NCBI GenBank assembly: GCA_963576565.1
Contig: OY755047.1
Coordinates: 8,402,931 to 8,466,930 of the forward strand
Reading direction: 5' to 3'
Length of the DNA: 64,000 nucleotides
Source: Aspidapion aeneum
Lineage: Eukaryota > Arthropoda > Insecta > Coleoptera > Brentidae
Part shown: positions 105-63,867 of the stretch, one piece after another
Layout of the letters: each line of letters starts with the position of its first letter
Position numbering within the stretch: position 1 is the stretch's first letter
Position numbers and translations under genes: made by a program
The notes under the pieces: generated by a model
The model's database searches: none
Told to the model about the DNA's origin: nothing
Seen by the model: only the letters and a program-made list of their open reading frames with translations

Positions 105-346
105 TTCTGCGTGTCGGCTCCTGGACTACACCTGCGTATATTCTTGATGTTTAAGGTCAACTTATATATATTTTGCGTGCATCGCATCGCACGCTAATTC
201 GATGACGACTCTTGAACGCTGAAAAGGAAGTGAGCGGCAGGGCGACCTGACTTTTTTTTTTGTTTTTGCATCGTTGTTCGAGACGCGAACCTGGTACCTT
301 CTGAATGTGAAGCCGACTACCATACCACGGCACTACCCTGCCGCCT
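105..346 (-). repeat. tRNA-derived SINE-like remnant
   Basis: Read on the minus strand, a tRNA-like head begins near 345. It has an A-box-like TGGTATGGTAGTCGG and, about 30 nt on, a B-box-like GGTTCGCGTCT. The body that follows (around 105-180) reappears at 41811-41861, so this is a dispersed family and not a lone tRNA. The tRNA acceptor stem is not convincing. The call rests on the box spacing and the second copy. Confidence 0.4.
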
Positions 347-13670: not shown

Positions 13671-14062
13671 TTTGTATATTATGTACCAAATTTCATTAAA
13701 ATCGGGCTAGCGGTTTTTGAGTTATGCGCGTTGGTCGTTACAGACAGACAGACATACAGACAGACAGACAACACAACAAAAAAGTTTCAAAATCATCTGA
13801 AACGCAAAGATATTTGAAAATTTTTGAAATCGGTGCAACTTTTTTTTTCTCGAAAAAATTAGGATCACCATAGCTCACACTACTATAGTATAGTAGTCGT
13901 GTGAGCTAAAATAATTATATTAGCACACTTCAAGTGAAGCCATAATATATCAGCCTTGAAAACAGTTTTTGTAAATATCTCAGAAACTAAAGCCGTAGGA
14001 ATTTTTTGGTTATAACACAAATTATTGAGCAAAAAATACAGTCTACTACAAACGTAAAGTTT
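13671..14062. repeat. Microsatellite and dispersed repeat
   Basis: A (CAGA)n run lies at 13741-13771 inside a widespread-looking element (AAATCGGGCTAGCGGTTTTT before it). A 36-base near-perfect palindrome follows at 13873-13908 (AGCTCACAC / GTGTGAGCT). The 13923-14062 segment is repeated at 60946-61075. Confidence 0.6.
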
Positions 14063-14070
14063 AGTATTCC

Positions 14071-14309
14071 CAGTGGCGTGTCGTATAGGGGGCCAGGGGG
14101 GGCGAATGCCCCCCCGCCCCTCTGCGCTTGGCGCCCCTGGCGGCCTTTGAGAAAAAAATAGAATTAATAGTGTTATTATTTAAAAAAAAGGTTTGTAATT
14201 TATTTGTCTCCCATACCTATATTTGCGCCCCTTAAGGTCTTCGCCCCCCCCCCCCCCGAACCGAACCGAACCGAACCCCCCCCGCCCTTTTATCCACGAC
14301 ACGCTACTG
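14071..14309. mobile_element. hAT MITE with perfect 8-bp target-site duplication
   Basis: The ends are CAGTGGCGTGTCGT and ACGACACGCTACTG, inverted repeats with one mismatch in 14. AGTATTCC is duplicated exactly on both sides (14063-14070 and 14310-14317). An 8-bp duplication with CAGTGGCG-type ends is the hAT signature. The interior is non-coding with G and C runs. It is inserted into a copy of the hammerhead-bearing repeat. Confidence 0.93.
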
Positions 14310-14560
14310 AGTATTCCGTGAATAAAGAAAACAACAATTTTTCGTGGCTAAGCGGGCATAGAAAGATTTTGTTTCTCTTGTATTTTTCCGTGGACACGAA
14401 AGCTGTACACCCAAAGGGGTCCAAGATCTAATGGACACCTATTAAGGGTTGATAGTTGACTGTTTTGTCCTTAAGGGACTCTTCAGAACACTGCATGGTC
14501 AATGTGACACTTTTGTAAAGCTATAGAGACGGTATATGAATCTTATCTTACGATATAGGT
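14310..14560 (-). repeat. Hammerhead-bearing repeat family, older copy
   Basis: The copy matches the arms of the palindrome at 61718-62280: GTGAATAAAG, TTTCGTGGCTAAGCGGGCA, CCAAGATCTAATGGACACCT. It is split by the hAT MITE just before it. A partial further copy follows at 14800-14850. Confidence 0.75.
14440..14500 (-). ncRNA. Decayed type I hammerhead ribozyme
   Basis: On the minus strand the core reads CTGAAGA (14486-14480), stem II GTCC-CTTAA-GGAC, then AAAA where GAAA is required (14466-14463). Stem I is AGTGTT against AACCCT, with one mismatch to the intact copies. Stem III has lost one pair. The G12 position, needed for catalysis, is changed, so it is probably inactive. Confidence 0.6.
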
Positions 14561-15540
14561 AAGAGAAATAAATAAATAATGCCCGCGATACCGTATGCTT
14601 TCACATAAGTGGCGACATCTACAAATACAAAAGAAACTACCAGAGGAAAAATGAACGGCAGGCAGATGACACGAAAAACAGTACCCATGACCGTGACATA
14701 CTTTGTTCCCCAGGTCGGGTCAATGCATATTGTATTTTTTCCGCCTTCGCAACTTTTTATGTCGAGTCAGCGGGGTGTGAGCCCAAAATAATAGAAACAT
14801 AAAGTTTGATACCCGTGAATAAAGAAAACAACAATTTTTCGTGGCAAAGTGTATAACAAAAGATCAATGAAAAGACAAATGTTTTTTTCATTTCATTTCA
14901 TAAGCTTTATTGTCCAAAAAATCTTAATTTCTATTGACAAAGCAAAATGTATTTAGATTACTACAACAAAAATATTATTACTAAACACAGTTTATATGAT
15001 TTTTCCCCAATATTAAAAATACACAGTATATATTACATTTCCTTGGCAATATTGAGAGCTTTTAATTATTTAAATCCCTGTCAAAGTTTTACTTAACAAT
15101 ATACATTGTTCCCCCTTTATCCAGAATTTTTATGCAATATATTTTTTATAGATATATTGATACCTAGCGTTTAAAATAGCAAGATATTGGTCATTTAAAA
15201 TTATAAAAATACATAAAAACAAAATAAAAATACAGACAACAGTAAAAAATAAAAAATAAAACAAAAAGAAACATTTATAAAAGCGAATTTGGCTTGTAAA
15301 ATTGACATTTAATCACACTTAAATGTTTAATTTACAACAGTTTTATAAACTAACATCACAGCAATTCAGGTACAAACCATATTAAAGTGAACAAAAATTA
15401 AACAAAAATTAAAATATATAGTAGACAAAAATTTTTTAAACAGCACTATAGCCGCAAAAAAAAACAAGATAAACAAGACAATACTAAACATGCTATAAAA
15501 GTAATTTAAAATGCCGTATCATAAAACTCATCCAGACTAT
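14561..15540. other. No gene; possible 3' UTR of a minus-strand retroelement
   Basis: The stretch is AT-rich. Read on the minus strand, the end at about 14920-14880 has AATAAA followed by ATGAAATGAAATGAAA, like the short-repeat tails of non-LTR elements. No coding sequence is recognisable upstream of it. Confidence 0.35.
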
Positions 15541-17307: not shown

Positions 17308-17310
<3 letters not shown>

Positions 17311-17338
<28 letters not shown>

Positions 17339-20422: not shown

Positions 20423-20640
20423 TATGCCTCTACTTGTTACATTTTTTTTGGTTTATTCTGATCGTAATATTTTTATCTGTATTTGTTAGGATTTTAGTTT
20501 TAGTGCAGTTCATAATTAAGCCTATATTTTTAGCTGCTGTATCTATCCAGTTCTTCCAGAATTTGTATAAATTTTTCTTTCTTGTCTGTTCTTAAGGCGA
20601 TATCATCAGCATATTAGGTGGTTCAAGTATTGTCCGCTTA

Positions 20641-20909: not shown

Positions 20910-20911
20910 TA

Positions 20912-21348
20912 GATAGTTTAAATTGTGCTACGTATTTTTACGTAAAACTGCACGTTAAGCGCTCTACGTTTTGTTCCAAATTTGAGTTCAAGTTGAATGT
21001 TTTTACGTTACCATAACAAGTCTACTAATAGCAGAGAATATGGAATTCGGCACTGTGTTTTTTTGATGTTACAATTTTGTTTTTTGTCTTTTCAACTACA
21101 GTAGAAATATATTTGCAAAGAATCGTTTGTACTGGAAGCGGAAATTATCGTCTAGGCCTCATTTTTCGATCGGTCAATCAACCAATTCTATTCTTTGGTA
21201 ACGTTAAGGTGCCCGCAGACTGCCGTAAGCTAACGTAAATACGTAAGCTCCTAACGTGACCTTGACGACGGTGTGACGAAGTGCGCTTGCGTAACTGTCA
21301 AATCTCATGCTTACGTAAAAATACGTAGGTAGCACAACTTAAACTATC
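20912..21348. mobile_element. 437-bp TIR element with TA target duplication
   Basis: The ends GATAGTTTAAATTGTGCTAC and the near-complement at the right (GTAGCACAACTTAAACTATC) are flanked by TA at 20910-20911 and 21349-21350. TACGTATTTTTACGTAA recurs inverted inside both ends. Non-coding. Confidence 0.8.
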
Positions 21349-21350
21349 TA

Positions 21351-21690
21351 ATATGTGGTTGGTGAAAACATTAAATAAAGCTCTGACTTGCAGCCATATT
21401 CACTAAATACATAATTAAAATCAGCACATTTTTTACAAGAACGTCTTTCTACTGGGAATTTTATATTTATGCATTCTAGCATTTCCGCTACACAAACAAA
21501 ATTGACATTCTGAGAATATTCCGCGAAACATTATATACTTGTTATGACATTCAAAAAATAAACAAAAAGCAACTATCAACAGACAGTGGCGCCTCTTAGC
21601 TTTAAAACATGGTGAAGACAGTGAAGAGCTACTTAAGGAAAATAATATCTGGGGGTACGGCAGTGCCCGCCAAGTTCACGTTAACTGTTA
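21351..21690. repeat. Host repeat flanking the Penelope insertion
   Basis: The last part (CAGTGCCCGCCAAGTTC... at about 21660) matches 42360-42400. It is a repeat into which the Penelope element inserted. The rest holds nothing recognisable. Confidence 0.5.
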
Positions 21691-21691
21691 A

Positions 21692-23020
21692 TTCTGCCTA
21701 ACGACATCATATTTCACCTTCAATGAACAAATTTATGAACAGATCGATGGAGTATCAATGGGTAGCCCTTTATCTCCAGTGATTGCGAACTTTTTCATGG
21801 AGAAACTAGAAGAGAAGGCGTTGAATAATGCCCCTCATAAACCCAAAGTCTGGTTTCGATATGTAGATGACACTTTTGTCGTTTGGCCTTATGGTAGAGA
21901 CAGCCTTAATGAATTTCTCAACCACATTAACAGCATACACCCCAGTATACAATTTACAATGGAAACAGAGAACAACAGAAAATTAGCATTCCTTGACGTA
22001 CTAGTAACGAGGAAAGAGGGACGACTAGGACATACCGTATACAGAAAACCTACTCACACAGACCGCTACCTAAACAACACATCTAACCACCACCCGTGCC
22101 AACGAAAAGGGGTAATAAGAACATTGGTAGAAAGGGCGAAAAGAATCTGCGAACCAGAACATCTAGACAAAGAATTAAACCATCTTAAAAACGCCCTCGT
22201 AGCAAATGGATACACTCAAAGCGACATAGATAAATGTATACGACCAAAGCCGAGCACTAGAAGTAACAGTAGCGGTGGACTGAGCAGCCGTGAAGTTACT
22301 TCAAGAGCCTTTCTGCTCTACATCCCTAGAGTGACAGATAGGATCGGACGTATTCTGGGAAAACACAACATAAAAACGATCTTCAAGCCATCTAAGAAGA
22401 TCGAGAACCACCTCAGATCTGCGAAGGATATAAGGAACCCACTAAGTTCTTCGGGGGTATACCGCATTCCCTGTACCTGTGGAAGTGTCTACATCGGAAC
22501 AACCAAACGGTCCGTAAACACAAGAATCAAAGAACACAAAGCCAACTGTCGACTCGGACATACGGAAAAATCCGCAGTTGCAGACCACACACTAAACAAT
22601 GAAGACCACCGAATAAAATTCGAAGACACACAAGTTCTCTGCGCTTCCTCTTCATACTATCCAAGACTTTATAGAGAAGCAATCGAAATTCATAAACACC
22701 AGCAGAACTTCAACAGATCTGAAGAAACTCTTAAAATTAACAGAACATGGGTACCGGTTCTTAAAAACACTAAACGGCTCGCTTACAATAACAAAACTGA
22801 ATCAAGGGAATGTGACCAATCACCGACCAGCTCTGATATACGCCCCGCCCACCATAGCGTATATAACCTGCGCCCGCGACAGACTAACCACCAGTCTTCG
22901 AGAAGCCGACTCGAGATGGCGAAACGTCGAGAACGAATTTCCAACGACGACGGCCGAACAGCCCGAAAGCACACCCACCATTGGACAATGGCCGCGAAAG
23001 CCTTTCACAATTTGTCATAT
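21692..23020 (+). CDS. Penelope-like retroelement: reverse transcriptase 3' half plus GIY-YIG endonuclease
   Basis: The frame is open from about 21692 to TGA 23045-23047 (first ATG 21758; numbering from there). GSPLSPVIANFFME (residues 2-15) and YVDD at 35-38 are the catalytic heart of a Penelope-type reverse transcriptase. LAFLDVLVTR follows at 77-85. At 233-257 the GIY-YIG nuclease appears: GVYRIPC, VYIGTTKR with CXC between, then the catalytic Arg in NTRIKEH, and a Glu in YREAIEIHKH. This RT plus GIY-YIG order is specific to Penelope-like elements. The N-terminal half of the RT is missing (5' truncation). The last residues (SYLTYLKLFF) come from flanking host repeat, so the element ends near 23010-23020. 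The copy has no internal stop, so it is fairly young. It cannot act on its own. Confidence 0.92.
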
Positions 23021-24490
23021 TTGACCTATCTAAAACTCTTCTTTTGAATAAGCTACGAAACTCAAACTTTGCACAGTCGTAGATCTTCATAGGGTTAACA
23101 ACACCTCCAAACTGATAGGGTAGGTTGTTGAAAAAGTCCAATCTGGAAGTACAGAAGAAGTTTGATGATTTGTATACATGACTAAGTGAGTGAGTTGCAA
23201 TTTCGACGTTTTTTGAAATTTCGTAACTACTTTACTACTTTATGGAAGTCCATGATATTTGGAGGTGTTAAAGTCAAAGCTACTCTCAAGAAGGGGCATT
23301 ATACTGATAGGGTAGGTTGTTGAAAAAGTCCAATCCTTCTTTAAAATTATTTATAACCTACGCGTTTCGAACTAAACGTTCATCATCAGGGCTTAGGAAC
23401 CGCAACACAGGAAATTATCACAAAGTGCCCAATTTCGTCTGCCTGAACATATAAAAACATAAAAAGTAAAATACAAACTACAAGATTTCTTAAAACAAAC
23501 AAAATTATTAAAAAACTATTATTATTATTTTTTTAAAAAATAATTTTGTGTTAGCTCCCGCTAAAATTTCGCGGTTGTTTGTAAATTTTTAAAACCACAC
23601 AATTGGATGAAAGGACAGAGTGCATTTGCGCATTTTGGACATGCGCACCAAAATCAGAGAGATCCTTTGTCAATCGCCTCGAGAAATGTCGTGTTAATTT
23701 CGTTCTCCAACTATTTCAAATTTCTACACCTCAAAGTGCTCGATTTTGGTGTACTGAAGCATAGAACTAGAAACTTCAGCCCTTCAGCTACGTGGTGACA
23801 TCATTAGATCCAATCAGGGGCCCCTTGGAAGTGGATAAATTGGCTGCAAACTGGTGAGTGCCTTTGTTTCTGATTGCCGTTGTGTGGCACAACAATTAAC
23901 CTATGGACGTTTGATTATTTCGTAATTTCATATCAATATATTTATGTTTGTTCGCGCTTCATTTAATTAAAATATTTACAGTCCATTGCAGTTATCGTTT
24001 TTCTTACTGCGGGCATAACATAAGTTACATATATGTTCCTTTCGAGCCGAATTATTTTAAATTTACTCCATACCACGGTATTGATCGGTCGGCCATTATT
24101 TTCACGCCGAAAACAAGGCGGCCTTGAATTTTTTGTTTTAAGAAATCTTGTAGTTTGTGTTTTACTTTTTGTGTTTTTATATGTTCAGGCAGACGAAATT
24201 GGGCACTTTGTGATAATTTCCTGTGTTGCGGTTCCTAAGCCCTAATGATGAACGTTTAGTTCGAAACGCGTAGACTATAAATAATTTTAAAGAAGGATTG
24301 GACTTTTTCAATAACCTACCCTATCAGTATAATGCCCCTTCTTGAGAGTAGCTTAGACTTTAACACCTCCAAATATCATGGACTTCCATAAAGTAGTAAA
24401 GTAGTTACGAAATTTCAAAAAACGTCGAAATTGCAACTCACTTACTTAGTCATGTATACAAATCATCAAACTTCTTCTGTACTTCCAGAC
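23021..24490. repeat. 1.35-kb palindrome inside a dispersed repeat
   Basis: The arms 23141-23500 and about 24150-24490 are inverted copies, including the repeat flank (ATGACTAAGTGAGTGAGTTG and its complement). The inner parts read TGATAGGGTAGGTTGTTG and CGCGTTTCGAAC...TCATCATCAGGG, with their complements. The loop, 23500-24150, has no convincing gene; the small frames at 23607 and 24033 are unremarkable. Each arm has a CTGATGA...GAAACGCG motif (see findings). Confidence 0.8.
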
Positions 24491-24990
24491 ATGCTACAAA
24501 GCTGAAATTTGGCAGACTGATAGAAATTATGACCAAACCCTTGGAAAAGATCAAAAAACCCCGAAATTCTAATTTACTCCCCTCCCCTATACATGTAAAG
24601 TTATGTAAAATTAATATTACCCACTTCCAAAAGCGTTAGAGAGCTGAGCTTTGGCAGACTGAGACTGAGAAATATGATAAAACTATAGAAAAAAAATTTA
24701 AAACCCCAAAATTTTAATTAACTTCCCTCCCCCATAAATATAAAGTTATGTAAAAGTAATATTGCACACTTCCAGAAATGCTAGAGAGCTGAGCTTTGGA
24801 AGCCTGATAGAAACTATGATAAAACTATAGGAAAACATTTAAAAACACCAAAGTTTTAATTTATTTCCTTCCTACAAATGGAAAGTTATGTAAAAGTAAC
24901 ATTGCCCAGTTCCAAGAACGTAGAGAGCTAAGCTTTAGAAGGCTGATAGGAACTATAATAACACCATAGGAAATAATTATAAATACTCTA
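24491..24990. repeat. ~142-bp tandem repeat, four diverged units
   Basis: GCTGA(A/G)(A/C)TTTGG.AG recurs at 24501, 24643, 24788 and 24928. Each unit also carries AACTATGATAAAACTATAG-like and AAGTTATGTAAAAGTAA-like segments. One unit of the family lies at 42565-42650, next to another retrotransposon. Confidence 0.85.
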
Positions 24991-25176
24991 ATTTTTTATG
25001 CGCCCTATTGGTTGCCATTCTAGGACCTGCTTTGGTAATCTTTCGTCGTTCATCCGTCGTACATGACCGTACCATATCAGTTGCCTTTTAGTGATGCCAG
25101 CTGTTCTGCATCCCTCGATTCTCATTTTTCCTTTTATGATTTTTTTCTTATATGATCTGTTCTAGATATTCTTATT

Positions 25177-26210
25177 GGGTCGCGGTTCGTTTGTCGAAAA
25201 CACGTTTATCGAAAACATCTTTATCGAAGACATTTTGATCGAAAATCTTAATTTCGAATGACATTTTGATCGAATAATGCTTTAATCGAAAACTTTTTTA
25301 TCGAATACAACTTTTTCGAATGACTTTTTAATCGAAAACTGTGCATGCAAGTGCTGAAAAATAATGGAATTTCCTTCGACAGGTCGCCGGTTTGGCTTCA
25401 CAAGCACATTTAAAAATAATTGTCGGTATTGACGATTGTAAATGAAAAGTTACGATACATATTGAATTTTATATGAAAAGGCACCTACCTCGGACTCTCT
25501 TGCGGCTCCAGTCAGCGTTTAAACGTCCAGTTTTTCACCTCAAAATTCACTTTTTTGGGAACGTGATTTTTCTAGTGTCTTGTTGTGACGGTGGTTCTTT
25601 GCACACTCATCGCGGCGCTGCTTCTCCGCACACTCATCGCGGCGCTGCTTCTCCGCGCACGTGTGCGGTGCCGTAAAAACCCATATGCATATTTTTGAGC
25701 GCGAAAATTTAAATTATTTTAAACGCGCAGAAAAGGAAAAGAAAATGAAAAATAGGAAATTCATTGCTTGCACCAACAAAAACATTTTTAAAATATCTGA
25801 AAGTTATCCAAATATGCCGGCGGCCTGCGTTATGCGGCCCGCATATTTGTAAACGACGTCCATGATTGCGATTCGGTTGTAGCCCGAACGCTGCCGTAAC
25901 CGTGTCAATGAAGCCCTATTCTACATTGACACGGTTCGGTTACGTTGGCGATCAATTGACAATGGTTAGGTTCCACATTCTCTAGGATCCCGGGAAAGAG
26001 GTCAGGAGAGTATGTTTTAAAAAAATATATGATTTTCGATTAAATTGTTATTCGATAAAAGTGCCATTCGAAATTAAGATTTTCGATCAAAATGTCATTC
26101 GAAATTAAGATTTTCGATCAAAATGTCATTCGAAATTAAGATTTTCGATCAAAATGTCTTCGATAAAGATGTTTTCGATAAACGTGTTTTCGACAAACGA
26201 ACCGCGACCC
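25177..26210. mobile_element. Foldback element with 9-bp target duplication (Mutator-like?)
   Basis: The ends GGGTCGCGGTTCGTTTGTCG and exact complement are inverted over at least 100 bases. They are built of repeated TCGAAAAC / ATCGAAGACATTTTGATCG phrases. ATTCTTATT (25168-25176) and ATTCTCATT (26211-26219) flank it: a 9-base duplication with one difference, and the uninterrupted relative at 27665-27680 has ATTCTCATT once. Nine-base duplications fit Mutator-like elements. The interior (about 25380-25990) is less AT-rich and includes a 27-bp direct repeat at 25604-25658. The frames 25473-25676 and 25661-25852 show no known domain. No transposase is visible. Confidence 0.85.
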
Positions 26211-46060: not shown

Positions 46061-49055
46061 GAGAAGCTAAACATTTTACGAAAAAAAGCACCGAGTTGTG
46101 GTATTGTCGGGTCATGTAGATGCTAAAAAACCACACAGTGATTTGAGATTCCGAAAAACGTCATTTACGGTTTTTCATTGTTTGAAATCCCATAACCTCC
46201 AAATATCGAAACTGAAAATTAATACTTCAGAAACTAAATATTTTACGAAGAAAAGTACCTAGTTGTGGTATTGTCGGGTCATGTAGATGCAAAAAACCAT
46301 ACAGTGATTCGAAATTCCGAAAAACGTCATTTACGATTTTTCAGGGTTTGACATCCCATATCGAAACTTTGAAAATTCATATTTCAGAAATTAAACTTTT
46401 TACGAAAAAAAGCACCGAGTTGTGGTATTGTCGGGTCATGTAGATGCGAAAAAACCACACAGTGATTTGAGATTCCGAAAAACGTCATTTACGGTTTTTC
46501 AGGGTTTGAAATCCCATAAGCTCCAAATATCGAAACTTTGAAAATTCATATTTCAGAAACTAAACATTTTACGAAAAAAAGCACCGAGTTGTGGTATTGT
46601 CGGGTCATTTAGATGCGAAAAAACCTCACAGTGATTTGAGATTCCGAAAAACGTCATTTACGGTTTTTCAGGGTTTGAAATCCCATAAGCTCCAAATATC
46701 GAAACTTTGAAAATTCATATTTCAGAAACTAAACATTTTACGAAAAAAAGCATCGAGTTGTGGTATTGTCGGGTCATGTAGATGCGAAAAAACCACACAG
46801 TGATTTGAGATTCCGAAAAACGTCATTTACGGTTTTTCAGGGTTCATTAAAGAGGAAACTTCCGAAGTTAAAGTTGGGAAACTCTTCGCAGAGAGTTCAG
46901 AGTTTGATTTTGCATAAAAAATCGCATGAAAAATTTTCCAAAATGTGTAAATATAATATATAATATTTATTCTTAGAGTAAGAAAAAAATAAAGAGAAGT
47001 AATCAACCGCGGCCCCGTATATATTTTTCGCTATTCGTGGCGGTCATTCCTAAAAACTTAGAATTTACAGAATCCCCGGCGATGGCAACATAGCTGCGTC
47101 ACTGAAATCACCTTACAAAAACCAAACTAGACTGAATTTTCACAATATTTTCATAAACATAGCACTTCTTGTTTATTTTTACGTCCAACTAAGTTCTTTT
47201 TTACAAAAACAAAACTCAACACACAGTAAAAACCAAAAACTCAATACAATCCGGGTCCGACGGCCAAGACAACACTGCATTTAATACAAACACATGTTAC
47301 TGTCAGTGTCGACCTTAGAGCTTAGGAAACTTTGGGCTAACGGTTCACGACTAATGGGCCACCTAATTAAACTTTTTTTTTCTTTCGAACCGAACCGAAC
47401 CGAACTTTACAAATTCATATTTCAGAAACTAAACATTTTACGAAAAAAAGCACCGAGTTGTGGTATTGTCGGGTCATGTAGATGCGAAAAAAACACACAG
47501 TGATTTGAGATTCCGAAAAACGTCATTTACGGTTTTTCAATCCCATAAGCTCCAAACATCGAAACTTTGAAAATTCATATTTCAGAAACTAAATATTTTA
47601 CGAAGAAAAGCACCGAGTTGTGATATTGTCGAGTCATGTAGATGCGAAAAAACCACACAGTGATTTGAGATTCCGAAAAACGTCATTTACGGCTTTTCAG
47701 GGTTTGAAATCCCATAAGCTCCAAATATCGAAACTTTGAAAATTCATATTTCAGAAACTAAACATTTTACGAAGAAAAGCACCGAGTTGTGGTATTGTCG
47801 GGTCATGTAGATGCAAAAAAACCCTACAGTGATTCGAGATTCCGAAAAACGTCATTTACGGTTTTTCAGGGTTTGAAATCCCATAAGCTCCAAATATCGA
47901 AACTTTGAAAATTCATATTTCAGAAACTAAACATTTTACGAAGAAAAGCACCGAGTTGTGGTATTGTCGGGTCATCTAGATGCGAAAAAACCACACAGTG
48001 ATTTGATATTCCAAAAAACGTCATTTACGGTTTTTCAGGGTATGAAATCTCACTACTATATAAAAATTTTGTTGAAAAGTAATTTTAGGTATTTATCTAT
48101 TTTTTATCTTTTCTAATAGCGATATATGTAACAGTTTATTTTTAAAACACCTCGTACAATTAAGCAAAAAGCTTCTTCAAAGTTTCTAATCCAAAGCTTT
48201 TTCAATTTTTTTACAAACGATCGAAAAACTTTTGCCCAAGTAAAAACTTTATTTCTGAATAAACTTTACAAATTACTTTTTATTCGATTAAAGAGGAAAC
48301 TTCCGAAGTTAAAGTTGGGAAACTCTTCTCAGAGAGTTCAGAGTTTGATCTTGCAAAAAAAATCGCATGAAAAATTTTCCAAAATGTGTAAATATAATAT
48401 ATAATATTTATTCTTAGAGTAAGAAAAAAATAAAGAGAAGTAATCAATCGCGGCCCCGTACAAATTTTTCGCTATTCGTGGCGGTCATTCCTAAAAACTT
48501 AGAATTTACAGAATCCCCGGCGATGGCAACATAGCTGCGTCACTGAAATCACCTTACAAAAACCAAACTAGGCTGAATTTTCACAATATTTTCATAAACA
48601 TAGCACTTCTTGTTTATTTTTACGTCCAACTAAGTTCTTTTTTAGAAAAACAAAACTCAACACACAGTAAAAACCAAAAACTCAATACAATCCGGGTCCG
48701 ACGGCCAAGACAACACTGCATTTAATACAAACACATGTTACTGTCAGTGACGACCTTAGAGCTTAGGACACTGGGCTAACGGTTCACGACTTGGGGGCCA
48801 CCTAATTAAACTTTTTTTTTCTTTCGAACCGAACCGAACCGAACGTTAAAAATTCAGAAACTAAACATTTTAGGAAAAAAGCACCGAGTTGTGGTATTGT
48901 CGGGTCATGTAGATGCGAAAAAACCACACAGTGATTTGAGATTCCGAAAAACGTCATTTACGGTTTTTCATTGTTTGAAATCCCATAAGCTCCAAATATC
49001 GAAACTTTGAAAATTCATATTTCAGAAACTAAACATTTCGCGAAGAAAAGCACCG
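46061..49055 (+). repeat. 169-bp satellite with two E-block insertions
   Basis: Monomers start GAGTTGTGGTATTGTCGGG and carry CACACAGTGATTTGAGATTC, AAAACGTCATTTACGG and AATCCCATAAGCTCCAAATA. E blocks interrupt at 46845-47420 and 48047-48860. Several monomers here are shortened or diverged (for example lacking the AGCTCCAA part), more than in the right-hand array. Frames such as 46760-46963 span satellite and E block and are not genes. Confidence 0.92.
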
Positions 49056-50998
49056 CAGCAAGTTTTAAACAAAGTCTGTCAGAAAAAATAAACCTATCAG
49101 TACCATTGCAAACACCAGAACAAATCGATAAAGAAGTTGAATATTTTGTTACAAATATTCAACAAGCAGCTTGGGAAAACAGTCCAAAACCAAAGATAAT
49201 TTTTAAGGGCAAAAACTATGCAAAGGAAATTAGAGACCTTATATTGGAAAAAAGGAAACTAAGAAGAAAGTGGCAGCAAAGCCGTGATCCTCGGGACAAA
49301 ACAAATCTCAACAACATGACGCAGCGCATTAGGCGAGAAATTCTAGTAATAAAAAATGAATCTATTAACCATTTTCTTAATGACCTTACAGATGATAAAA
49401 ATACCGACTATTCCCTTTGGAAAGCAACCAAAGATTTTAAGAGACCAATTATCCAAATTCCACCCATACGAAAATCTAACAACCAGTGGGCAAGGAGTAA
49501 CGAAGAAAAAGCAGATATTTTTGCAAGTCATTTAGAAAAAACATTTCAGCCCCACGAAGCACCAGATGAACACTTTCATTTAAATGAACCCCATCAAATC
49601 GAGGACCATATTAAGCTTACATCACCAAAAGAAATATTAACAGAAATCAAAAATATTAATTCGAAAAAAGCCCCAGGGTATGATCTTATTAACGGGGTAG
49701 TCATAAAACAACTCCCCAGAAAAGCTATCGTAAAACTATGCAACCTAATTAATGCGTCTTTTAGGCTTAGGTATGTACCTAAACTGTGGAAAGTTGCAGA
49801 AGTTATCATGATTCCAAAACCGGGAAAACCACTCCATGACGTGTCATCTTACAGGCCAATATCTTTGCTGCCAATTATATCCAAGCTCTATGAAAAATTA
49901 TTGCTTAAAAGAATAAAACCCATCATAGAAAGACAAGAAATTATTCCATCTCATCAATTTGGTTTTCGAGACAAGCATTCCACGATAGATCAAGTACACA
50001 GAATTACTAATATAATAGAAAAAGCACTAGAAGAGGGAAAAGTTTGTTCTGCAGTTTTTCTAGATGTAGCACAAGCATTTGACAAAGTGTGGCATGAAGG
50101 CCTTAATTTTAAACTAAAACGGTTTCTGCCAAAACAATATTCGGATATTTTGGAATCATACATATCTGATAGACATTTTAGAGTAAAACAGGAAGACTCA
50201 TACTCAAATTTAAGAGAAATTCAAGCAGGCGTGCCCCAGGGTAGCGTACTAGGCCCTTATCTATACTTATTATTCACTTGTGATATCCCAAAGCCAGAAA
50301 ATTGTCACTTAGCAACATTTGCCGATGATACTGGTTTATTGACGGTAGAAAAATCTATTGAAAAATGCATAGAAAAACTTCAGGATTCAGTCACCCAAGT
50401 TCACAGTTGGACCACAAAGTGGCGAATAAAATTAAATGAAACCAAATCAATTCATGTTGATTTTACAAACAAAAATATAAATCACATACAAATAACAATT
50501 AACAACATTCCAGTACCATATTCGAATCAGGCAAAATATCTAGGTATGACACTTGATGCCAAATTGCGCTGGAAAGCACATGTTAAGAAAAAAAAGGAAG
50601 AACTTGAGATAAGGTATAGAAAAATGAACTGGCTAATTGGAAGGAAGTCCAATTTAACAATTCATAATAAGTTACTGCTTTATAGACAAATACTGAAACC
50701 AGTATGGACATATGGTATTCAACTATGGGGTTGTGCTAAAGAGAGTAACATTCTAGTTGTACAGAGATTTCAAAATAAAGTATTAAGAAACATTGTGAAT
50801 GCACCTTGGTACGTTCGAAATAGTGACCTTCATCGAGATCTAAAAATCGAAACTGTAGCAGAGACTATAAAAAAGTACGCAAAAAGCCATGAAGATAGAC
50901 TCCATCGGCATGTGAATGTGGAAGCAATTCAGCTTCTAGACAATACTATGCTAGTTCGAAGACTAAAAAGAGTGAAGCCGTTTGAGCTAGTAAACTAA
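49007..50998 (+). CDS. Jockey-clade retrotransposon ORF2, reverse transcriptase complete, endonuclease lost
   Basis: The open frame of 663 codons; the first ~16 (from ATG 49007) are translated satellite, and element sequence begins at 49056. Next come the connector (RKLRRKWQQSRD), reverse transcriptase with KAPGYDLI, MIPKPGKP and SYRPISLLPIISKLYEKLL, the first catalytic Asp at 353 (FLDVAQAFDKVWHEGL), QAGVPQGSVLGP at 406-417 and FADD with Asp 440-441. YLGMTLDAKLRWKAHV and WTYGIQLWGCA follow. Full-length jockey ORF2 also has an N-terminal APE endonuclease, absent here by 5' truncation. There is no stop or frameshift in the remaining ORF. The 3' UTR and A-rich tail end at about 51199. The flanks show the target duplication. 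Confidence 0.93.
   Translation: MKIHISETKHFAKKSTAASFKQSLSEKINLSVPLQTPEQIDKEVEYFVTNIQQAAWENSPKPKIIFKGKNYAKEIRDLILEKRKLRRKWQQSRDPRDKTNLNNMTQRIRREILVIKNESINHFLNDLTDDKNTDYSLWKATKDFKRPIIQIPPIRKSNNQWARSNEEKADIFASHLEKTFQPHEAPDEHFHLNEPHQIEDHIKLTSPKEILTEIKNINSKKAPGYDLINGVVIKQLPRKAIVKLCNLINASFRLRYVPKLWKVAEVIMIPKPGKPLHDVSSYRPISLLPIISKLYEKLLLKRIKPIIERQEIIPSHQFGFRDKHSTIDQVHRITNIIEKALEEGKVCSAVFLDVAQAFDKVWHEGLNFKLKRFLPKQYSDILESYISDRHFRVKQEDSYSNLREIQAGVPQGSVLGPYLYLLFTCDIPKPENCHLATFADDTGLLTVEKSIEKCIEKLQDSVTQVHSWTTKWRIKLNETKSIHVDFTNKNINHIQITINNIPVPYSNQAKYLGMTLDAKLRWKAHVKKKKEELEIRYRKMNWLIGRKSNLTIHNKLLLYRQILKPVWTYGIQLWGCAKESNILVVQRFQNKVLRNIVNAPWYVRNSDLHRDLKIETVAETIKKYAKSHEDRLHRHVNVEAIQLLDNTMLVRRLKRVKPFELVN
49046..49055. 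other. Target-site duplication of the jockey insertion, left
   Basis: AAAAGCACCG of a satellite monomer stands directly before the element and again at 51200-51209 after its A-rich tail, where the satellite resumes in register. This is the footprint of target-primed reverse transcription. Confidence 0.88.
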
Positions 50999-51199: not shown

Positions 51200-53075
51200 A
51201 AAAGCACCGAGTTGTGATATTGTCGGGTCATGTAGATGCGAAAAAACCACACAGTGATTTGAGATTCCGAAAAACGTCATTTACGGCTTTTCAGGGTTTG
51301 AAATCCCATAAGCTCCAAATATCGAAACTTTGAAAATTAATATTTCAGACACTAAATATTTTACGAAGAAAAGCACCTAGTTGTGGTATTGTCGGGTCAT
51401 GTAGATGCAAAAAAACCATACAGTGATTCGAGATTCCGAAAAACGTCATTTACGGTTTTCCAGGGTTTGACATCCCATATCGAAACTTTGAAAATTCATA
51501 TTTCAGAAACTAAACATTTTACGAAAAAAAGCACCGAGTTGTGGTATTGTCGGGCCATGTAGATGCGAAAAAACCACACAGTGATTTGAGATTCCGAAAA
51601 ACGTCATTTATGGTTTTTCAGGGTTTCAAATCCCATAAGCTTCAAATATCAAAACTTTGAAAATTCATATTTCAGAAACTAAACATTTTACGAAAAAAAG
51701 CACCGAGTTGTGGTATTGTCGGGTCATTTAGATGCGAAAAAACCTCACAGTGATTTGAGATTCCGAAAAACGTCATTTACGGTTTTTCAGGGTTTGAAAT
51801 CCCATAAGCTCCAAATATCGAAACTTTGAAAATTCATATTTCAGAAACTAAACATTTTACGAAAAAAAGCATCGAGTTGTGGTATTGTCGGGTCATGTAG
51901 ATGCGAAAAAACCACACAGTGATTTGAGATTCCGAAAAACGTCATTTACGGTTTTTCAGGGTTCATTAAAGAGGAAACTTCCGAAGTTAAAGTTGGGAAA
52001 CTCTTCGCAGAGAGTTCAGAGTTTGATCTTGCATAAAAAATCGCATGAAAAATTTTCCAAAATGTGTAAATATAATATATAATATTTATTCTTAGAGTAA
52101 GAAAAAAATAAAGAGAAGTAATCAACCGCGGCCCCGTACATATTTTTCGATATTCGTGGCGGTCATTCCTAAAAACTTAGAATTTACAGAATCCCCGGCG
52201 ATGGCAACATAGCTGCGTCACTGAAATCACCTTACAAAAACCAAACTAGACTGAATTTTCACAATATTTTCATAAACATAGCACTTCTTGTTTATTTTTA
52301 CGTCCAACTAAGTTCTTTTTTACAAAAACAAAACTCAACAAACAGTAAAAACCAAAAACTCAATACAATCCGAGTCCGACGGCCAAGACAACACTGCATT
52401 TAATACAAATATATGTTACTGTCAGTGTCGACCTTAGAGCTTAGGAAACTTTGGGCTAACGGTTCACGACTTGGGGGCCACCTAATTAAACTTTTTTTTT
52501 CTTTCGAACCGAACCGAACCAAACTTTAAAAATTCATATTTTAGAAACTAAACATTTTACGAAAAAAAGCACCGAGTTGTGGTATTGTCGGGTCATGGAG
52601 GTGTGAAAAAACCATACAGTGATTCAAGATTCCGAAAAACGTCATTTACGGCTTTTCAGGGTTTGAAATCCCATAAGCTCCAAATATCGAAACTGAAAAT
52701 TAATATTTCAGAAACTAAATATTTTACGAAGAAAAGCACCTAGTTGTGGTATTGTCGGGTCATGTAGATGCAAAAAAACCATACAGTGATTCGAGATTCC
52801 GAAAAACGTCATTTACGGTTTTTCAGGGTTTGACATCCCATATCGAAACTTTGAAAATTCATATTTCAGAAACTAAACATTTTACAAAAAAAAGCACCGA
52901 GTTGTGGTATTGTCGGGTCATGTAGATGCGAAAAAACCACACAGTGATTTGAGATTCCGAAAAACGTCATTTACGGTTTTTCAGGGTTTGAAATCCCATA
53001 AGCTCCAATTATCGAAACTTTGAAAATTCATATTTCAGAAACTAAACATTTTACGAAAAAAAGCACCGAGTTGTG
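51200..53075 (+). repeat. Satellite plus E block, first copy of a 2542-bp tandem duplication (part)
   Basis: Satellite monomers 51200-51960, E block 51961-52540, satellite 52541-53075. Together with the jockey 3' end from 50536 this is the unit repeated at 53078-55617. Confidence 0.92.
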
Positions 53076-53077
53076 CT

Positions 53078-53540
53078 ATATCTAGGTATGACACTTGATG
53101 CCAAATTGCGCTGGAAAGCACATGTTAAGAAAAAAAAGGAAGAACTTGAGATAAGGTATAGAAAAATGAACTGGCTAATTGGAAGGAAGTCCAATTTAAC
53201 AATTCATAATAAGTTACTGCTTTATAGACAAATACTGAAACCAGTATGGACATATGGTATTCAACTATGGGGTTGTGCTAAAGAGAGTAACATTCTAGTT
53301 GTACAGAGATTTCAAAATAAAGTATTAAGAAACATTGTGAATGCACCTTGGTACGTTCGAAATAGTGACCTTCATCGAGATCTAAAAATCGAAACTGTAG
53401 CAGAGACTATAAAAAAGTACGCAAAAAGCCATGAAGATAGACTCCATCGGCATGTGAATGTGGAAGCAATTCAGCTTCTAGACAATACTATGCTAGTTCG
53501 AAGACTAAAAAGAGTGAAGCCGTTTGAGCTAGTAAACTAA
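53078..53540 (+). pseudogene. Jockey C-terminus duplicated with the satellite
   Basis: Starting at ATATCTAGGTATGACACTTG the sequence repeats 50536-50998 without a difference that I can see. It preserves the C-terminal 150 residues of the retrotransposon ORF but no reverse transcriptase palm. It was made by duplication of DNA, not by a separate retrotransposition: the left edge joins directly to a satellite monomer with two extra bases (53076-53077) and no target duplication. Confidence 0.92.
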
Positions 53541-58600: not shown

Positions 58601-60690
58601 ACTTTGAAAATTCATATTTCAGAAACTAAACATTTTACGAAAAAAAGCACCGAGTTGTGGTATTGTCGGGTCATTTAGATGCGAAAAAACCACACAGTGA
58701 TTTGAGATTCCAAAAAACGTCATTTACGGTTTTTCAGGGTTTGAAATCCCATAAGCTCCAAATATCGAAACTTTGAAAATTCATATTTCAGAAACTAAAC
58801 ATTTTACAAAAAAAAGCACCGAGTTGTGGTATTGTCGGGTCATGTAGATGCGAAAAAACCACACAGTGATTTGAGATTCCGAAAAACGTCATTTACGGTT
58901 TTTCAGGGTTTGAAATCCCATAAGCTCCAATTATCGAAACTTTGAAAATTCATATTTCAGAAACTAAACATTTTACGAAAAAAAGCACCGAGTTGTGGTA
59001 TTGTCCGGTCATTTAGATGCGAAAAAACCACACAGTGATTTGAGATTCCAAAAAACGTCATTTACGGTTTTTCAGGGTTTGAAATCCCATAAGCTCCAAA
59101 TATCGAAACTTTGAAAATTCATATTTCAGAAACTAAACATTTTACGAAAAAAAGCACCGAGTTGTGGTATTGTCGGGTCATTTAGATGCGAAAAAACCAC
59201 ACAGTGATTTGAGATTCCAAAAAACGTCATTTACGGTTTTTCAGGGTTTGAAATCCCATAAGCTCCAAATATCGAAACTTTGAAAATTCATATTTCAAAA
59301 ACTAAACATTTTACGAAAAAAAGCACCGAGTTGTGGTATTGTCGGGTCATTTAGATGCGAAAAAACCACACAGTGATTTGAGATTCCGAAAAACGTCATT
59401 TACGGTTTTTCAGGGTTTGAAATCCCATAAGCTCCAATTATCGAAATTTTGAAAATTCATATTTCAGAAACTAAACATTTTACGAAAAAAAGCACCGAGT
59501 TGTGGTATTGTCTGGTCATTTAGATGCGAAAAAACCACACAGTGATTTGAGATTCCAAAAAACGTCATTTACGGTTTTTCAGGGTTTGAAATCCCATAAG
59601 CTCCAAATATCGAAACTTTGAAAATTCATAATTCAGAAACTAAACATTTTACGAAAAAAAGCACCGAGTTGTGGTATTGTCGGGTCATGTAGATGCGAAA
59701 AAACCACACAGTGATTTGAGATTCCGAAAAACGTCATTTACGGTTTTTCAGGGTTTGAAATCCCATAAGCTCCAATTATCGAAACTTTGAAAATTCATAT
59801 TTCAGAAACTAAACATTTTACGAAAAAAAACACCGAGTTGTGGTATTGTCCGGTCATTTAGATGCGAAAAAACCACACAGTGATTTGAGATTCCAAAAAA
59901 CGTCATTTACGGTTTTTCAGGGTTTGAAATCCCATAAGCTCCAAATATCGAAACTTTGAAAATTCATATTTCAGAAACTAAACATTTTACGAAAAAAAGC
60001 ATCGAGTTGTGGTATTGTCGGGTCATGTAGATGCGAAAAAACCACACAGTGATTTGAGATTCCGAAAAACGTCATTTACGGTTTTTCAGGGTTTGAAATC
60101 CCATAAGCTCCAATTATCGAAACTTTGAAAATTCATATTTCAGAAACTAAACATTTTACGAAAAAAAACACCGAGTTGTGGTATTGTCCGGTCATTTAGA
60201 TGCGAAAAAACCACACAGTGATTTGAGATTCCAAAAAACGTCATTTACGGTTTTTCAGGGTTTGAAATCCCATAAGCTCCAAATATCGAAACTTTGAAAA
60301 TTCATATTTCAGAAACTAAACATTTAACGAAAAAAAGCACCGAGTTGTGGTATTGTCGGGTCATTTAGATGCGAAAAAACCACACAGTGATTTGAGATTC
60401 CAAAAAACGTCATTTACGGTTTTTCAGGGTTTGAAATCCCATAAGCTCCAAATATCGAAACTTTGAAAATTCATATTTCAGAAACTAAACATTTTACGAA
60501 AAAAAGCACCGAGTTGTAGTATTGTCGGGTCATTTAGATGCGAAAAAACCACACAGTGATTTGAGATTCCGAAAAACGTCATTTACGGTTTTTCAGGGTT
60601 TGAAATTCCTAAGCTCCAAATATCGAAATTTTGAAAATCCATATTTCAGAAACTAAACATTTTACGAAAAAAAACACCGAGTTGTGGTAT
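55425..60690 (+). repeat. Ten-monomer higher-order satellite repeat, three copies
   Basis: Monomers are 169 bases (GAGTTG at 55610, 55779, 55948). Variant markers return every 1690 bases: TTGTCCGGTC at 55621, 57311 and 59001; TCTGG at 56131, 57821 and 59511; GCATCGAG ending the prefix at 56620, 58310 and 60000; ATTCATAATTCAG near 56248, 57938 and 59628. 1690 is exactly ten monomers. Neighbouring monomers differ (CCAAATATCG or CCAATTATCG, CATTTAG or CATGTAG, CCGAAAAA or CCAAAAAA) while the 1690-base units are almost identical. Confidence 0.95.
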
Positions 60691-60833
60691 TGTCGGGTCA
60701 TGTAGATGCGAAAAAACCATACAGTGATTCGAGATTCCGAAAAACGTCATTTACGGTTTTTCAGGGTTTGAAATCCCATAAGCTCCAGATATCGAAACTT
60801 TGAAAATTCATATTTCAGAAACTAAACATTTTC
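60691..60833 (+). repeat. Satellite edge monomer
   Basis: The last monomer is diverged from the higher-order pattern and stops in ACTAAACATTTT at 60833. Confidence 0.85.
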
Positions 60834-61403
60834 TTTTGCAGGGGCAAGGCCGGCATTAACCCTATGTACGGTACTACCCCCCTTCAACAAAAAAATAAAT
60901 GGATCCATGACAGATCTGGTACCTTCCTAGCTAGCCATCAGCACACTACAAGTGAAGCTATGATAATATATTAGCTTTCAAAACAGTTTTTTGTAAATAT
61001 CTCAGAAAGTAAAGCTCTTACGAAGCTTTTGGTTATAACACAAATTATTGAGCAAAATGTAGTCTACTATATGCTAAAAATTATATATTGGTACGATGCT
61101 CCGTTAAAAAGTTAGCATTTTTAAAAATTTTAATTGTCCAAAAACTGTCATTAGCATTAATGGATTTTGACCAAAATCTAATCAGCTCGTAAGAGTGTCG
61201 AGCACTATTTTACCTGAAAATTTTATAAAAATCGGTTTAGCGGTTTAGGAGCTATCCTGTTACGGACAGAAATAATAACACACACATACACAGATAGACA
61301 TCACGACGATATTGCTAGGATAGGTCAAAATACACCCAAATAACACATTTTCGAGGTTATCCTAAGAAAAAATTGTCGTCGAAAATAATACCTTCTCTAG
61401 CTG
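60834..61403. repeat. Dispersed repeat
   Basis: 60946-61075 matches 13923-14062 (AGTGAAGC.AT, AAATATCTCAGAAA, TTGGTTATAACACAAATTAT). An AATCGGTTTAGCGGTTTAGG segment follows. No gene. Confidence 0.6.
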
Positions 61404-61717
61404 GAATGGGACAATTCGCCGTCGACCGATTCGCCGCGGGGACAATTCCCCGCGAGATTTTTTGTTTTATGATATTACCATTGGCAATTGTTTAAACAGC
61501 TTTATTTAGCTTGACTTCATATAATATATTTGTTTGTTTGTTTGATCATAACTTTTTTCAAACTTTTTCTTTAGGTGTGGTTAGTATACAGTTCAACATT
61601 TTTTTTAATTAGAAAAATAAATAAAATGGCGGATTTTTCCATTTATGAACCGATATGCAGCAAACTCAAAACTTTGCGATCTTTCAAGTCGCTGATTATT
61701 ATTTTTAACAAACGTGA
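61404..61717. other. ATTCGCCGCGG cluster; no gene
   Basis: 61404-61455 repeats the CAATTCGCCG / GATTCGCCGCGG phrases seen at 28330-28385. 61626 has AATGGCGGATTTTTCC, related to the motif at 62780-63180. Confidence 0.5.
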
Positions 61718-62280
61718 AATTTCGTACCCGTGAATTTAAAAATCAAACAAGTTTCATGGCTAATCGGGCAAAAAGGAGTTTTTTGTTTCCCTTATATTTT
61801 TCCGTGGGTAGCTTGAAAGCTTAACCTCACGGGGGTCCAAGATCTAATGGACACCTAATAAGTGTTGACAGTTAAAGCTGTCGTAGGTCACGGACTATAG
61901 TTGTTTTCTTTTCATTGATCGATATTGTATAGCAGTGTTTTCCCTGCTTTTGGTTTTTTGTTTCTCTCGCATCTCGGTAGATGGCGCCTCTTGCTATAGT
62001 TCGCTCACTAATTACATTTAATTAGAGACAAAACCGTCTGATTAACTTCGCAAGATTTGTCACTTGACCAGCAGTGTTCTGAGGAGTCCCATAAGGACGA
62101 AACGGTTAACTGTCAACACTTATTAGGTGTCCATTAGATCTTGGACCCCCGTGAGGTTAAGCTTTCAAGCTACCCACGGAAAAATATAAGGGAAACAAAA
62201 AACTCCTTTTTGCCCGATTAGCCATGAAACTTGTTTGATTTTTAAATTCACGGGTACGAAATTTCACGTTTGTTAGTATT
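61718..62280. repeat. Palindromic copy of the hammerhead-bearing repeat
   Basis: Arms 61718-61880 and 62108-62280 are near-perfect inverted copies (AAACGTGAAATTTCGTACCC, CAAACAAGTTTCATGGCTAA, CAAGATCTAATGGACACCTA). The inner edge of both arms is the stem III/cleavage part of the hammerhead. The loop carries the rest of the ribozyme. Confidence 0.88.
62066..62131 (+). ncRNA. Type I hammerhead ribozyme, copy 1
   Basis: Core CTGAGGA 62079-62085; stem II GTCC (62086-62089), loop CATAA, GGAC (62095-62098); GAAA 62099-62102; stem III ACGG-TTAA-CTGT; cleavage site GTC ending at 62114. Stem I pairs AGTGTT (62073-62078) with AACACT (62115-62120) and, across an internal loop, ACC (62067-62069) with GGT (62126-62128). 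All conserved nucleotides of the natural hammerhead core are present. Predicted to self-cleave after C62114. Confidence 0.88.
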
Positions 62281-62370
62281 ATTTGGCTTAAAAATTCCGT
62301 TGATTGACGCTCACTGTCTTGATGACGGGTAAAAATGCAAAATGCGTTAATCCGGCCTGAAAAGACAAAG

Positions 62371-62757
62371 AGCTGTCGTAGGTCACGGACTATAGTTGTT
62401 TTCTTTTATTTGCATTCGATCTTTTCATCGATCGATATTGTATAGCAGTGTTTTTCCCTGCTTTTGGTTTTTTGTTTCTCTCGTATCTCGGTAGATGGCG
62501 CCTCTTGCTATAGTTCGCTCACTAATTACATTTAATTAGAGACAAAACCGTCTGATTAACTTCGCAAGATTTGTCACTTGACCAGCAGTGTTCTGAGGAG
62601 TCCCATGAGGACGAAACGGTTAACTGTCAACACTTATTAGGTGTCCATTAGATCTTGGACCCCCGTGAGGTTAAGCTTTCAAGCTACCCACGGAAAAATA
62701 TAAGGGAAACAAAAAACTCCTTTTTGCCCGATTAACCATGAAACTTGTTTGATTATT
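62371..62757 (+). repeat. Direct duplication of the hammerhead repeat
   Basis: This segment repeats 61882-62270, from GAGCTGTCGTAGGTCACGG through the arm sequence to CCATGAAACTTGTTTGATT, with an extra ~20 bases (TATTTGCATTCGATC) near 62410 and a few substitutions. Confidence 0.9.
62587..62640 (+). ncRNA. Type I hammerhead ribozyme, copy 2
   Basis: Core CTGAGGA 62593-62599; stem II GTCC-CATGA-GGAC (62600-62612); GAAA 62613-62616; stem III CGG/CTG with TTAA loop; cleavage after C62628. Stem I AGTGTT (62587-62592) with AACACT (62629-62634). The only difference from copy 1 in the core region is the stem II loop (CATGA for CATAA). Confidence 0.88.
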
Positions 62758-62769
62758 TTTAACTTAAAT

Positions 62770-63180
62770 TTAAAAAAATCAAAATGGCGAATCCAAAATG
62801 GCAGACTTTCTCATTTATGAACCAATAAGCGTCAAATTCGGAACTTTCAGGTGTTTTAGGTCGCTGATTGTGATTTCTAACTTGAAAAAAAAACAAAATG
62901 GCGGGGACAAAATCGCGTATTTTCCCATTTCCCATGATTATTATGTTTAACTTAAATTTAAAAAAATCAAAATGGCGAATCCGAAATGGCGGACGTTCCC
63001 ATTTATGAACCAATATGCATTAAATTCGGAACTTTGGGGTGTTTTAGGTCCCTGATTTTAATTTCTAACTTAAACTTTAAAAAAACCAAAATGGTGGTTT
63101 CAAAATGGCGCACTTTCTTATTTATAAACCGATTTGCCTCAAACTTGAAACATCGCATCCGCCATTGTCATTGTCATTTT
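62770..63180. repeat. ATGGCG-rich tandem repeat
   Basis: AAAATGGCGAATCC.AAATGGC recurs at 62782 and 62970 (187 bases apart), with weaker units at 62897 and 63090. Each is followed by CATTTATGAACCAAT and TTAAATTCGGAACTTT. The related phrase is at 61626. The frames on both strands are repeat read-through. Confidence 0.75.
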
Positions 63181-63261
63181 TTTAAAGAAATTTTGTTAAA
63201 AAAGTGAACTTTGTTTTTCTTTTATTTTTTTGACTATTTAAATTCAATTCTTATAAATTAA

Positions 63262-63745
63262 ACAAACACAACTTTTTCTGGGTATTACGCCACTAGTAAG
63301 GAAAAATTACTTTAAAAATTATAAAAAACCACTGCGTTTCTCCTAGAAAAATAAAAATCACTAATTTGTCAGTGGCTTTCTATAAAAATAAATAGTTGCC
63401 TAGTAAAACCTAAACCACTTATCTTTTAATTGAATTTGAATACGCTACGTTTCGATTGCCAATCTACAATCGTTTTCAAGCTTTTTATTTATATTTTGTC
63501 TCAAAATCTTAAATGTTTCTTGTTCAAATATATTTTTTATTATAATGGCAATCGAAACGTAGCGTATTCAAATTCAATTAAAAGATAAGTGGTTTAGGTT
63601 TTACTAGGCAACTATTTATTTTTATAGAAAGCCACTGACAAATTAGTGATTTTTATTTTTCTAGGAGAAACGCAGTGGTTTTTTATAATTTTTAAAGTAA
63701 TTTTTCCTTACTAGTGGCGTAATACCCAGAAAAAGTTGTGTTTGT
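63262..63745. repeat. Near-perfect palindrome, 2 x ~202 bp arms, ~81-bp loop
   Basis: 63262-63463 and 63545-63745 are inverted copies with no mismatch I can find. The loop edge carries CTACGTTTCGATTGCCAAT, complemented on the other side. No coding sequence. Compare the palindromes at 23141-24490 and 61718-62280. Confidence 0.92.
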
Positions 63746-63867
63746 AAAATGAATCCGCCACAAACATATAGATTTTATTCTTATAAATTAAGCCATTATA
63801 CATAATGTACTTAAACTAAGTATACCAAAGATACAAACACCCTAACCTCTCTCTAAATAGTAGTTTA

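Follow-up and report, generated by a model that had tools for sequence, protein, structure and literature searches.

Two hammerhead-like motifs lie in direct orientation within the 64-kb stretch of DNA analysed here (the window), and they raise the question of which kind of mobile element carries them and by what route it entered this site. Earlier publications already describe Penelope pseudo-LTR hammerheads, ORF-less retrozymes, the capture of noncoding sequence between pseudo-LTRs, and non-autonomous Penelope elements of short length. The combination of an ORF-less, retrozyme-like hammerhead unit with a Penelope insertion layout was not found in the literature portions consulted, and we make no claim that it is absent from print. 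A retrozyme review states that metazoan retrozyme repeats carry no conserved motif pointing to the autonomous element that mobilises them (PMC7761336), and Penelope-like elements are regarded as strong candidate mobilisers of animal retrozymes (PMC7229834). An ORF-less hammerhead element with a Penelope insertion layout would supply sequence-level evidence for this link.

Results

Two type I hammerhead motifs

The preliminary description placed two type I hammerheads 514 nt apart in direct orientation, and the coordinates, the cores and full-length matches to the Rfam model RF00163 all agree with it. Each part that it listed can be read in both motifs (HHR1 and HHR2): the core segments CTGAGGA, GAAA and GTC (GUC in the RNA), a GTCC/GGAC stem II, a stem I of six pairs (AGTGTT/AACACT), and a stem III in which three pairs and a basal A-U pair are capped by a UUAA loop. 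The general type I pattern of CUGANGA / GAAA / NUH with three helices and an open stem I is likewise present in both. With the hammerhead fold enforced, the outer pairing proposed across the internal loop of stem I amounts to seven pairs in HHR1 (62061-62067 with 62123-62129), and the folded motif contains both this internal loop and a 5-nt loop II. Stem III is self-complementary across 12 nt. The predicted cuts, both on the + strand, fall where the preliminary description had put them and are spaced by 514 nt.

A model score below threshold for both motifs had been proposed as grounds for abandoning the hammerheads, and both indeed score below the RF00163 gathering score of 34 bits. At relaxed thresholds, HHR1 and HHR2 reached 24.7 and 24.2 bits (E of 0.0053 and 0.0078 with 2.6 kb searched; 0.0022 and 0.0032 with 1.06 kb searched), and an Rfam scan of the whole window at gathering thresholds listed nothing. 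Both matches nevertheless span model positions 1-45 and include a complete core. The gathering score serves as a cut-off for curation rather than as an element of the hammerhead definition, and both cores are complete; for these reasons we did not take the shortfall as decisive, and we judge a below-threshold test to be too strict for short-stem hammerheads. A core pattern that was composed after the motifs had been seen matched three times in the window with up to one mismatch, against 0.14 matches expected, and none of 100 shuffles reached three; the third match (14463-14486, minus strand) is a decayed relative. Viral contigs scanned for the hammerhead pattern yielded 0 matches.

Fold computations, which were made without tertiary contacts, disfavour the hammerhead in isolated RNA. 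Left free, the single motif has a minimum free energy (MFE) of -16.5 kcal/mol, compared with -13.7 kcal/mol for the imposed hammerhead pairing. In each of five sequence contexts, the least probable pair in stems I and III had a probability no higher than about 0.03. Dimer pairing via the self-complementary stem III could rescue cleavage, by analogy with the dimer-type hammerheads reported for axolotl and newt (PMC7229834), and so could a protein partner, as in the Anolis Penelope-like hammerhead, for which cleavage is described only together with its protein (PMC11167929). The complete cores and full-length model matches make hammerheads our best reading of both motifs, with catalysis predicted from their sequence.

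Both hammerheads sit in a single insertion

The segment 61710-62751 is a single insertion of 1,042 bp that carries both hammerheads in its two direct repeats (Table 1). We regard it as one insertion because its flanks form an exact target site duplication (TSD), because its empty site is gapless, and because such 12-mer pairs are rare. When 61709 is joined to 62764, the restored site aligns without gaps at the joint to two neighbouring tandem-repeat units. Elsewhere in the window, of 60,000 start positions scanned with the element itself left out, six begin a comparable 12-mer pair at this 1,042-nt spacing, with a tolerance of 4 nt, and all six are in one place. The TSD starts with ATT, and the target is AT-rich.

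Table 1. Coordinates of the features discussed (positions in the 64-kb window)
Feature	Position	Strand	Basis or remark
Left TSD copy, 12 bp, ATTATTTTTAAC	61698..61709	.	exact match to 62752-62763
Inverted 5' arm (partial inverted pseudo-LTR)	61710..61875	-	with 4 nt of the TSD (61706-61875), reverse complement of 62106-62275
First direct pseudo-LTR, 362 nt, with HHR1	61876..62237	+	aligned to 62371-62751
HHR1, type I hammerhead	62073-62120	+	RF00163 24.7 bits; core and helices; predicted cut after C62114
514-nt unit between predicted cuts	62115..62628	+	cut-site coordinates
ORF-less internal spacer, 133 nt	62238..62370	+	between direct pseudo-LTRs
Candidate 'tail' between the element's two ends	62238-62275	+	unit positions of 3' end and arm end
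Second direct pseudo-LTR, 381 nt, with HHR2; element end = 62751	62371..62751	+	BLAST, alignment
HHR2, type I hammerhead	62587-62634	+	RF00163 24.2 bits; predicted cut after C62628
Right TSD copy, 12 bp, ATTATTTTTAAC	62752..62763	.	exact match to 61698-61709
Diverged, older ORF-less copy (unit 104-514, followed by 1 to about 160)	14048..14848	-	BLAST
Decayed hammerhead of older relative	about 14444-14492	-	core AAAA in place of GAAA
5'-truncated Penelope-like ORF, RT palm and GIY-YIG	21692..23047	+	PF00078, PF01541

A BLAST comparison of the region with itself returned three related pieces, namely 61876-62237, 62371-62751 and, inverted, 61706-61875. When aligned, the two direct pseudo-LTRs differ by four substitutions together with one 18-nt and one 1-nt indel. 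The arm match, which includes 4 nt inside the TSD, is identical to its internal counterpart at 170 of 170 positions. Counted from the predicted cut, the 3' end of the element lies at unit position +123..126 and the end of the arm at +157..161, which is a difference of 31-38 nt. Microhomology of 3-4 nt is present at both ends, with 4 nt at the priming end of the arm. No 3' poly(A) is present at 62751, and neither the ORF list nor the stop-free stretches revealed an RT/GIY-YIG ORF inside the element, which is thus not an autonomous Penelope-like member. The preliminary description was also right that the copy lacks coding capacity, as the longest stop-free stretch of the circular unit is 43 codons on the plus strand and 82 on the minus strand.

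Three other interpretations of this anatomy were rejected. A satellite array does not fit one full unit with two partial ones bounded by a TSD; a DNA transposon with terminal inverted repeats does not fit an arm that repeats internal sequence and a right end that is not the reverse complement of the left; and a minus-strand ribozyme would have an incomplete core, since the arm is only 62106-62275 reversed.

Related segments sharing the word AAAATGGCG occupy 62752-63188 and also 61624-61709 to the left of the insertion, and the empty-site comparison was made with two of these segments. Just upstream of the element, at 60000-60946, lies a tandem array whose period is about 169 bp, its copies being 66-97% alike to the first. 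A near-perfect inverted repeat at 63257-63750 (210-nt arms, 98% complementary, 74-nt gap) is probably an element of the fold-back or miniature inverted-repeat kind.

A probable Penelope-like route of insertion

The preliminary description had named two homes for such tandem hammerheads, Penelope-like elements and animal retrozymes. The scar, with its direct pseudo-LTRs, inverted arm, TSD and tail-spaced ends, favours the Penelope mechanism, while the ORF-less 514-nt unit is also retrozyme-like, and judged by its sequence the element sits between the two classes. We put the probability at roughly three in four that it is a non-autonomous Penelope-like retroelement, comprising two hammerhead-bearing direct pseudo-LTRs, an ORF-less 133-nt spacer and an inverted 5' arm, and that it was moved in trans.

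The sequence directly shows how the element is laid out, its 12-bp TSD, its two end positions and that it has no ORF, and from these features we infer the following steps of transcription and insertion. The element would be transcribed as a tandem RNA, to which a Penelope-like RT/GIY-YIG protein would bind in trans. This protein would nick an AT-rich target with a 12-nt stagger, and cDNA would be primed at both nicks, starting inside the RNA, past the hammerhead. On one strand, a start at unit +123..126 would give rise to the long direct part; on the other, a start at +157..161 would produce the inverted arm. The second cDNA would end at 62106, in the stem III loop of HHR1, and the junction between the two cDNAs would lie near 61875/61876. 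Cleavage by the hammerheads may reduce the tandem transcript to 514-nt units, and these could be circularised by a ligase of the host. Given the 3-4 nt of microhomology at both ends, base pairing could have set the two start sites, in place of positions fixed by the RT.

Against this reading, the window contains no autonomous Penelope-like element with the same pseudo-LTR, and its sole RT/GIY-YIG gene is truncated. This gene, the only Penelope-like one found in the window, is matched from 21695 by the C-terminal parts only (residues 300-439 onward) of six Penelope-like proteins of 699-785 aa, and BLAST found no pseudo-LTR copy beside it. A truncated gene without a neighbouring pseudo-LTR indicates that the class is present in this genome but does not point to a helper role. 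Among 120 of its 2,769 matches, the best named ones come from the weevil Sitophilus oryzae (62%) and the lizard Anolis sagrei (60%), together with many further insects, which suggests that the host is an insect and perhaps a beetle. Directly after the gene, an inverted repeat spans 23142-24489, with 361-nt arms that are 98% complementary and 626 nt apart.

The 514-nt unit and its predicted RNA

The unit has a GC content of 39.5%, and its circular monomer folds at -133.3 kcal/mol, compared with a mean of -113.6 (sd 6.1) for 100 shuffles, none of which was as low (z -3.2). In this fold 59% of the bases are paired, and stem II is present while stems I and III are absent. When the arm is included in the transcript, the MFE structure pairs 169 of the 170 arm bases with 62106-62275, the cut side of HHR1, and none with the HHR2 copy. 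This modelled pairing argues against efficient double cleavage of an arm-containing transcript, and efficient monomer release would need either a transcript start after 61876 or a different copy. As originally suggested, a 514-nt RNA may be released by double cleavage and may then circularise.

Cut junctions were copied unbroken three times within the insertion, at 62114/62115, at 62628/62629, and at the first of these again in the arm. At these places the cDNA was thus copied either from tandem RNA that the hammerheads had left uncut or from a circle closed again by ligation. A reverse transcription template intact across the cut sites parallels the Anolis system, in which unprocessed RNA is the dominant substrate (PMC11167929). 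The sequence leans toward a mixed tandem template, as the direct repeats differ from each other and the arm is identical to the middle unit, although the difference (4 of 362 versus 0 of 170 substitutions) is non-significant (p 0.31).

An ordinary animal non-LTR retrozyme is the first alternative to consider. Here tandem units would be transcribed, self-cleaved and circularised, and the circle would be copied through more than one round by some RT to yield a dimer. Type I hammerheads in a direct dimer, low GC, the lack of an ORF and a self-paired monomer (z -3.2) all fit the published description (PMC7229834). However, the 514-nt unit is longer than the published RNAs of 170-400 nt and repeats of 150-450 bp (PMC7229834), and the inverted arm and paired ends follow a Penelope layout. 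In addition, four substitutions and two indels between the repeats would be unexpected from one circle copied twice, even if later mutation is possible (p 0.31). We therefore consider this origin unlikely, while regarding it as a serious contender.

The scar itself allows a second alternative. In LINE twin priming, a TSD and a 5' inversion result from a second, internal priming event. Acting on multimeric hammerhead RNA, target-primed reverse transcription with such an event would invert an upstream unit, and could also give the TSD and inverted arm. The 4-nt microhomology at the arm's priming end is in line with this, as are the 95 nt that, on a longer multimeric template, would be missing between the arm and the direct part, and several further RT genes are present in the window. 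The element nevertheless ends at 62751 without poly(A), and the distance between its two priming positions is that of one Penelope 'tail'; both positions lie beyond the hammerhead, like those of the Penelope-like element of Anolis (PMC11167929). In our view this makes twin priming improbable. One of these other RT genes is a LINE-like ORF of 669 aa at 48989-50998, with a best identity of 71% among 120 of its 3,135 matches. Its last 153 residues recur in identical letters at 53046-53540, which is probably a young truncated copy or a duplication.

An older relative in the same window

A second, diverged and likewise ORF-less copy is present in the window (Table 1). It aligns to unit positions 104-514 at 63% identity (E 5e-23) and to positions 1-139 at 77% (E 4e-25), and reaches 78% across a 225-nt stretch that includes the hammerhead. 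Its own hammerhead has decayed, and an Rfam search of 13000-26000 at E values up to 10 reported none in this copy. Its 3' end is uncertain and can be placed only to within unit +160..+182, and a search for its TSD found none. Identity between the young and old copies peaks at the hammerhead and just past the cut, with 79 of 91 positions identical from -51 to +40 versus 251 of 459 elsewhere (p 2e-9), although these boundaries were picked after inspection of the profile and depend on the alignment. Just past the cut, 26 bases (TAGGTGTCCATTAGATCTTGGACCCC, within 62115-62190) are identical in both copies and form a hairpin in both, which makes this hairpin a candidate site for binding of the helper.

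The older relative contains a recognisable part of the spacer of the young copy, and the ORF-less unit is therefore probably older than the 61710-62751 insertion. Since an ORF-less relative shares the unit and part of the spacer, it is unlikely that the ORF-less form arose as a one-off deletion. The older copy also contains a nested element of 239 bp at 14071-14309 (minus strand), which is flanked by 8-bp repeats (GGAATACT) and has 14-nt inverted ends that are alike at 13 of 14 positions (CAGTAGCGTGTCGT / CAGTGGCGTGTCGT). Its 8-bp TSDs suggest that the nested element is hAT-like.

These observations bear upon a third alternative, in which an autonomous Penelope-like element decayed and lost its ORF by deletion. 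Loop II of HHR2 does contain an ATG (62605-62607), whose A lies 24 nt from the cut, a distance similar to the 26 bp given for the element from Anolis (PMC11167929). The reading frame from this ATG, however, stops after 11 codons, and HHR1 has ATA at the same place, so the ATG may have arisen by chance. The older relative is likewise ORF-less and shares part of the spacer, and the identity of the arm and its partner over 170 nt leaves little time for decay. This history is thus quite improbable. Finally, it is very improbable that the motifs are non-catalytic look-alikes or without present importance, for although both score under the Rfam gathering score, isolated RNA disfavours the fold, and in Anolis hammerhead mutants left in vitro insertion unchanged and 0 RNA-seq reads ended at the cut (PMC11167929), every core letter is present in both motifs, none of 100 shuffles reached their count, identity to the old copy is concentrated on the hammerhead and a flank whose boundaries were set post hoc, and the Anolis hammerhead did cut with its protein present (PMC11167929).

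Discussion

The reading of this locus as a non-autonomous Penelope-like element leads to a broader proposal, which we offer tentatively and with some doubt: animal retrozymes of this kind may be ORF-less Penelope-like elements, and the scar may be the work of a Penelope-like RT starting at two internal sites, at both nicks, on RNA with intact cut sites. If true, the helper of animal retrozymes would be named by sequence alone. The insertion described here makes the helper question testable through the end positions of all copies in one genome. It also links the inverted arms seen in Penelope-like elements with the extension of both strands that the Anolis protein performs in vitro.

The element resembles animal non-LTR retrozymes in its type I hammerheads within direct repeats, its lack of an ORF, its low GC and its self-paired monomer, and differs from them in its 514-nt unit, inverted arm and pseudo-LTR layout (PMC7229834). 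Published Penelope hammerheads are termed minimal, with helix III absent, whereas the motifs here have a helix III of 3-4 pairs (PMC6155905, PMC7761336). Like the noncoding and host sequences captured by Penelope elements of A. vaga, the insertion holds sequence other than a Penelope ORF between its pseudo-LTRs, has a TSD, and would have been moved in trans; the captured sequences are, however, described as unrelated (PMC3846280), while here two diverged copies share a spacer and so look like a family. The short nonautonomous Penelope elements of heliconiine butterflies are likewise short, nonautonomous and from insects (PMC6685494); the word 'ribozyme' has 0 occurrences in the main text of that paper.

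The closest parallels come from two systems that have the RT/GIY-YIG ORF missing here. Typical A. vaga Penelope elements consist of two direct pseudo-LTRs and an adjacent, somewhat shorter inverted one, although some families have no inverted copy or TSD, and the same arrangement as here is found in Pen2a_Av, which has a TSD of 9 bp and a tail of 31 bp (PMC3846280). Where present, TSDs of the rotifer elements are 8-10 bp, compared with 12 bp here, and the 31-bp tail is optional and located on one of the inverted pseudo-LTRs (PMC3846280). In vitro, the Anolis protein makes nicks in the two target strands, with a preference for ATT, and extends both, and reverse transcription starts inside the RNA, past the hammerhead, at a site described as having no homology to the target (PMC11167929). 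In Anolis PAc, the hammerhead is at the border of pseudo-LTR and ORF and reverse transcription begins 111-118 nt inside the ORF, or about 85-92 nt beyond the cut, compared with +123..126 and +157..161 past the cut here (PMC11167929). The insertion nonetheless shares with PAc/Poseidon an RT start downstream of the hammerhead, an AT-rich target and a tail between the starts (PMC11167929). Its end spacing of 31-38 nt, taken from one copy, is close to the 31 bp of the rotifer tail (PMC3846280) and to the 30-40 bp given for the Penelope 'tail', the region between the two RT start sites (PMC11167929).
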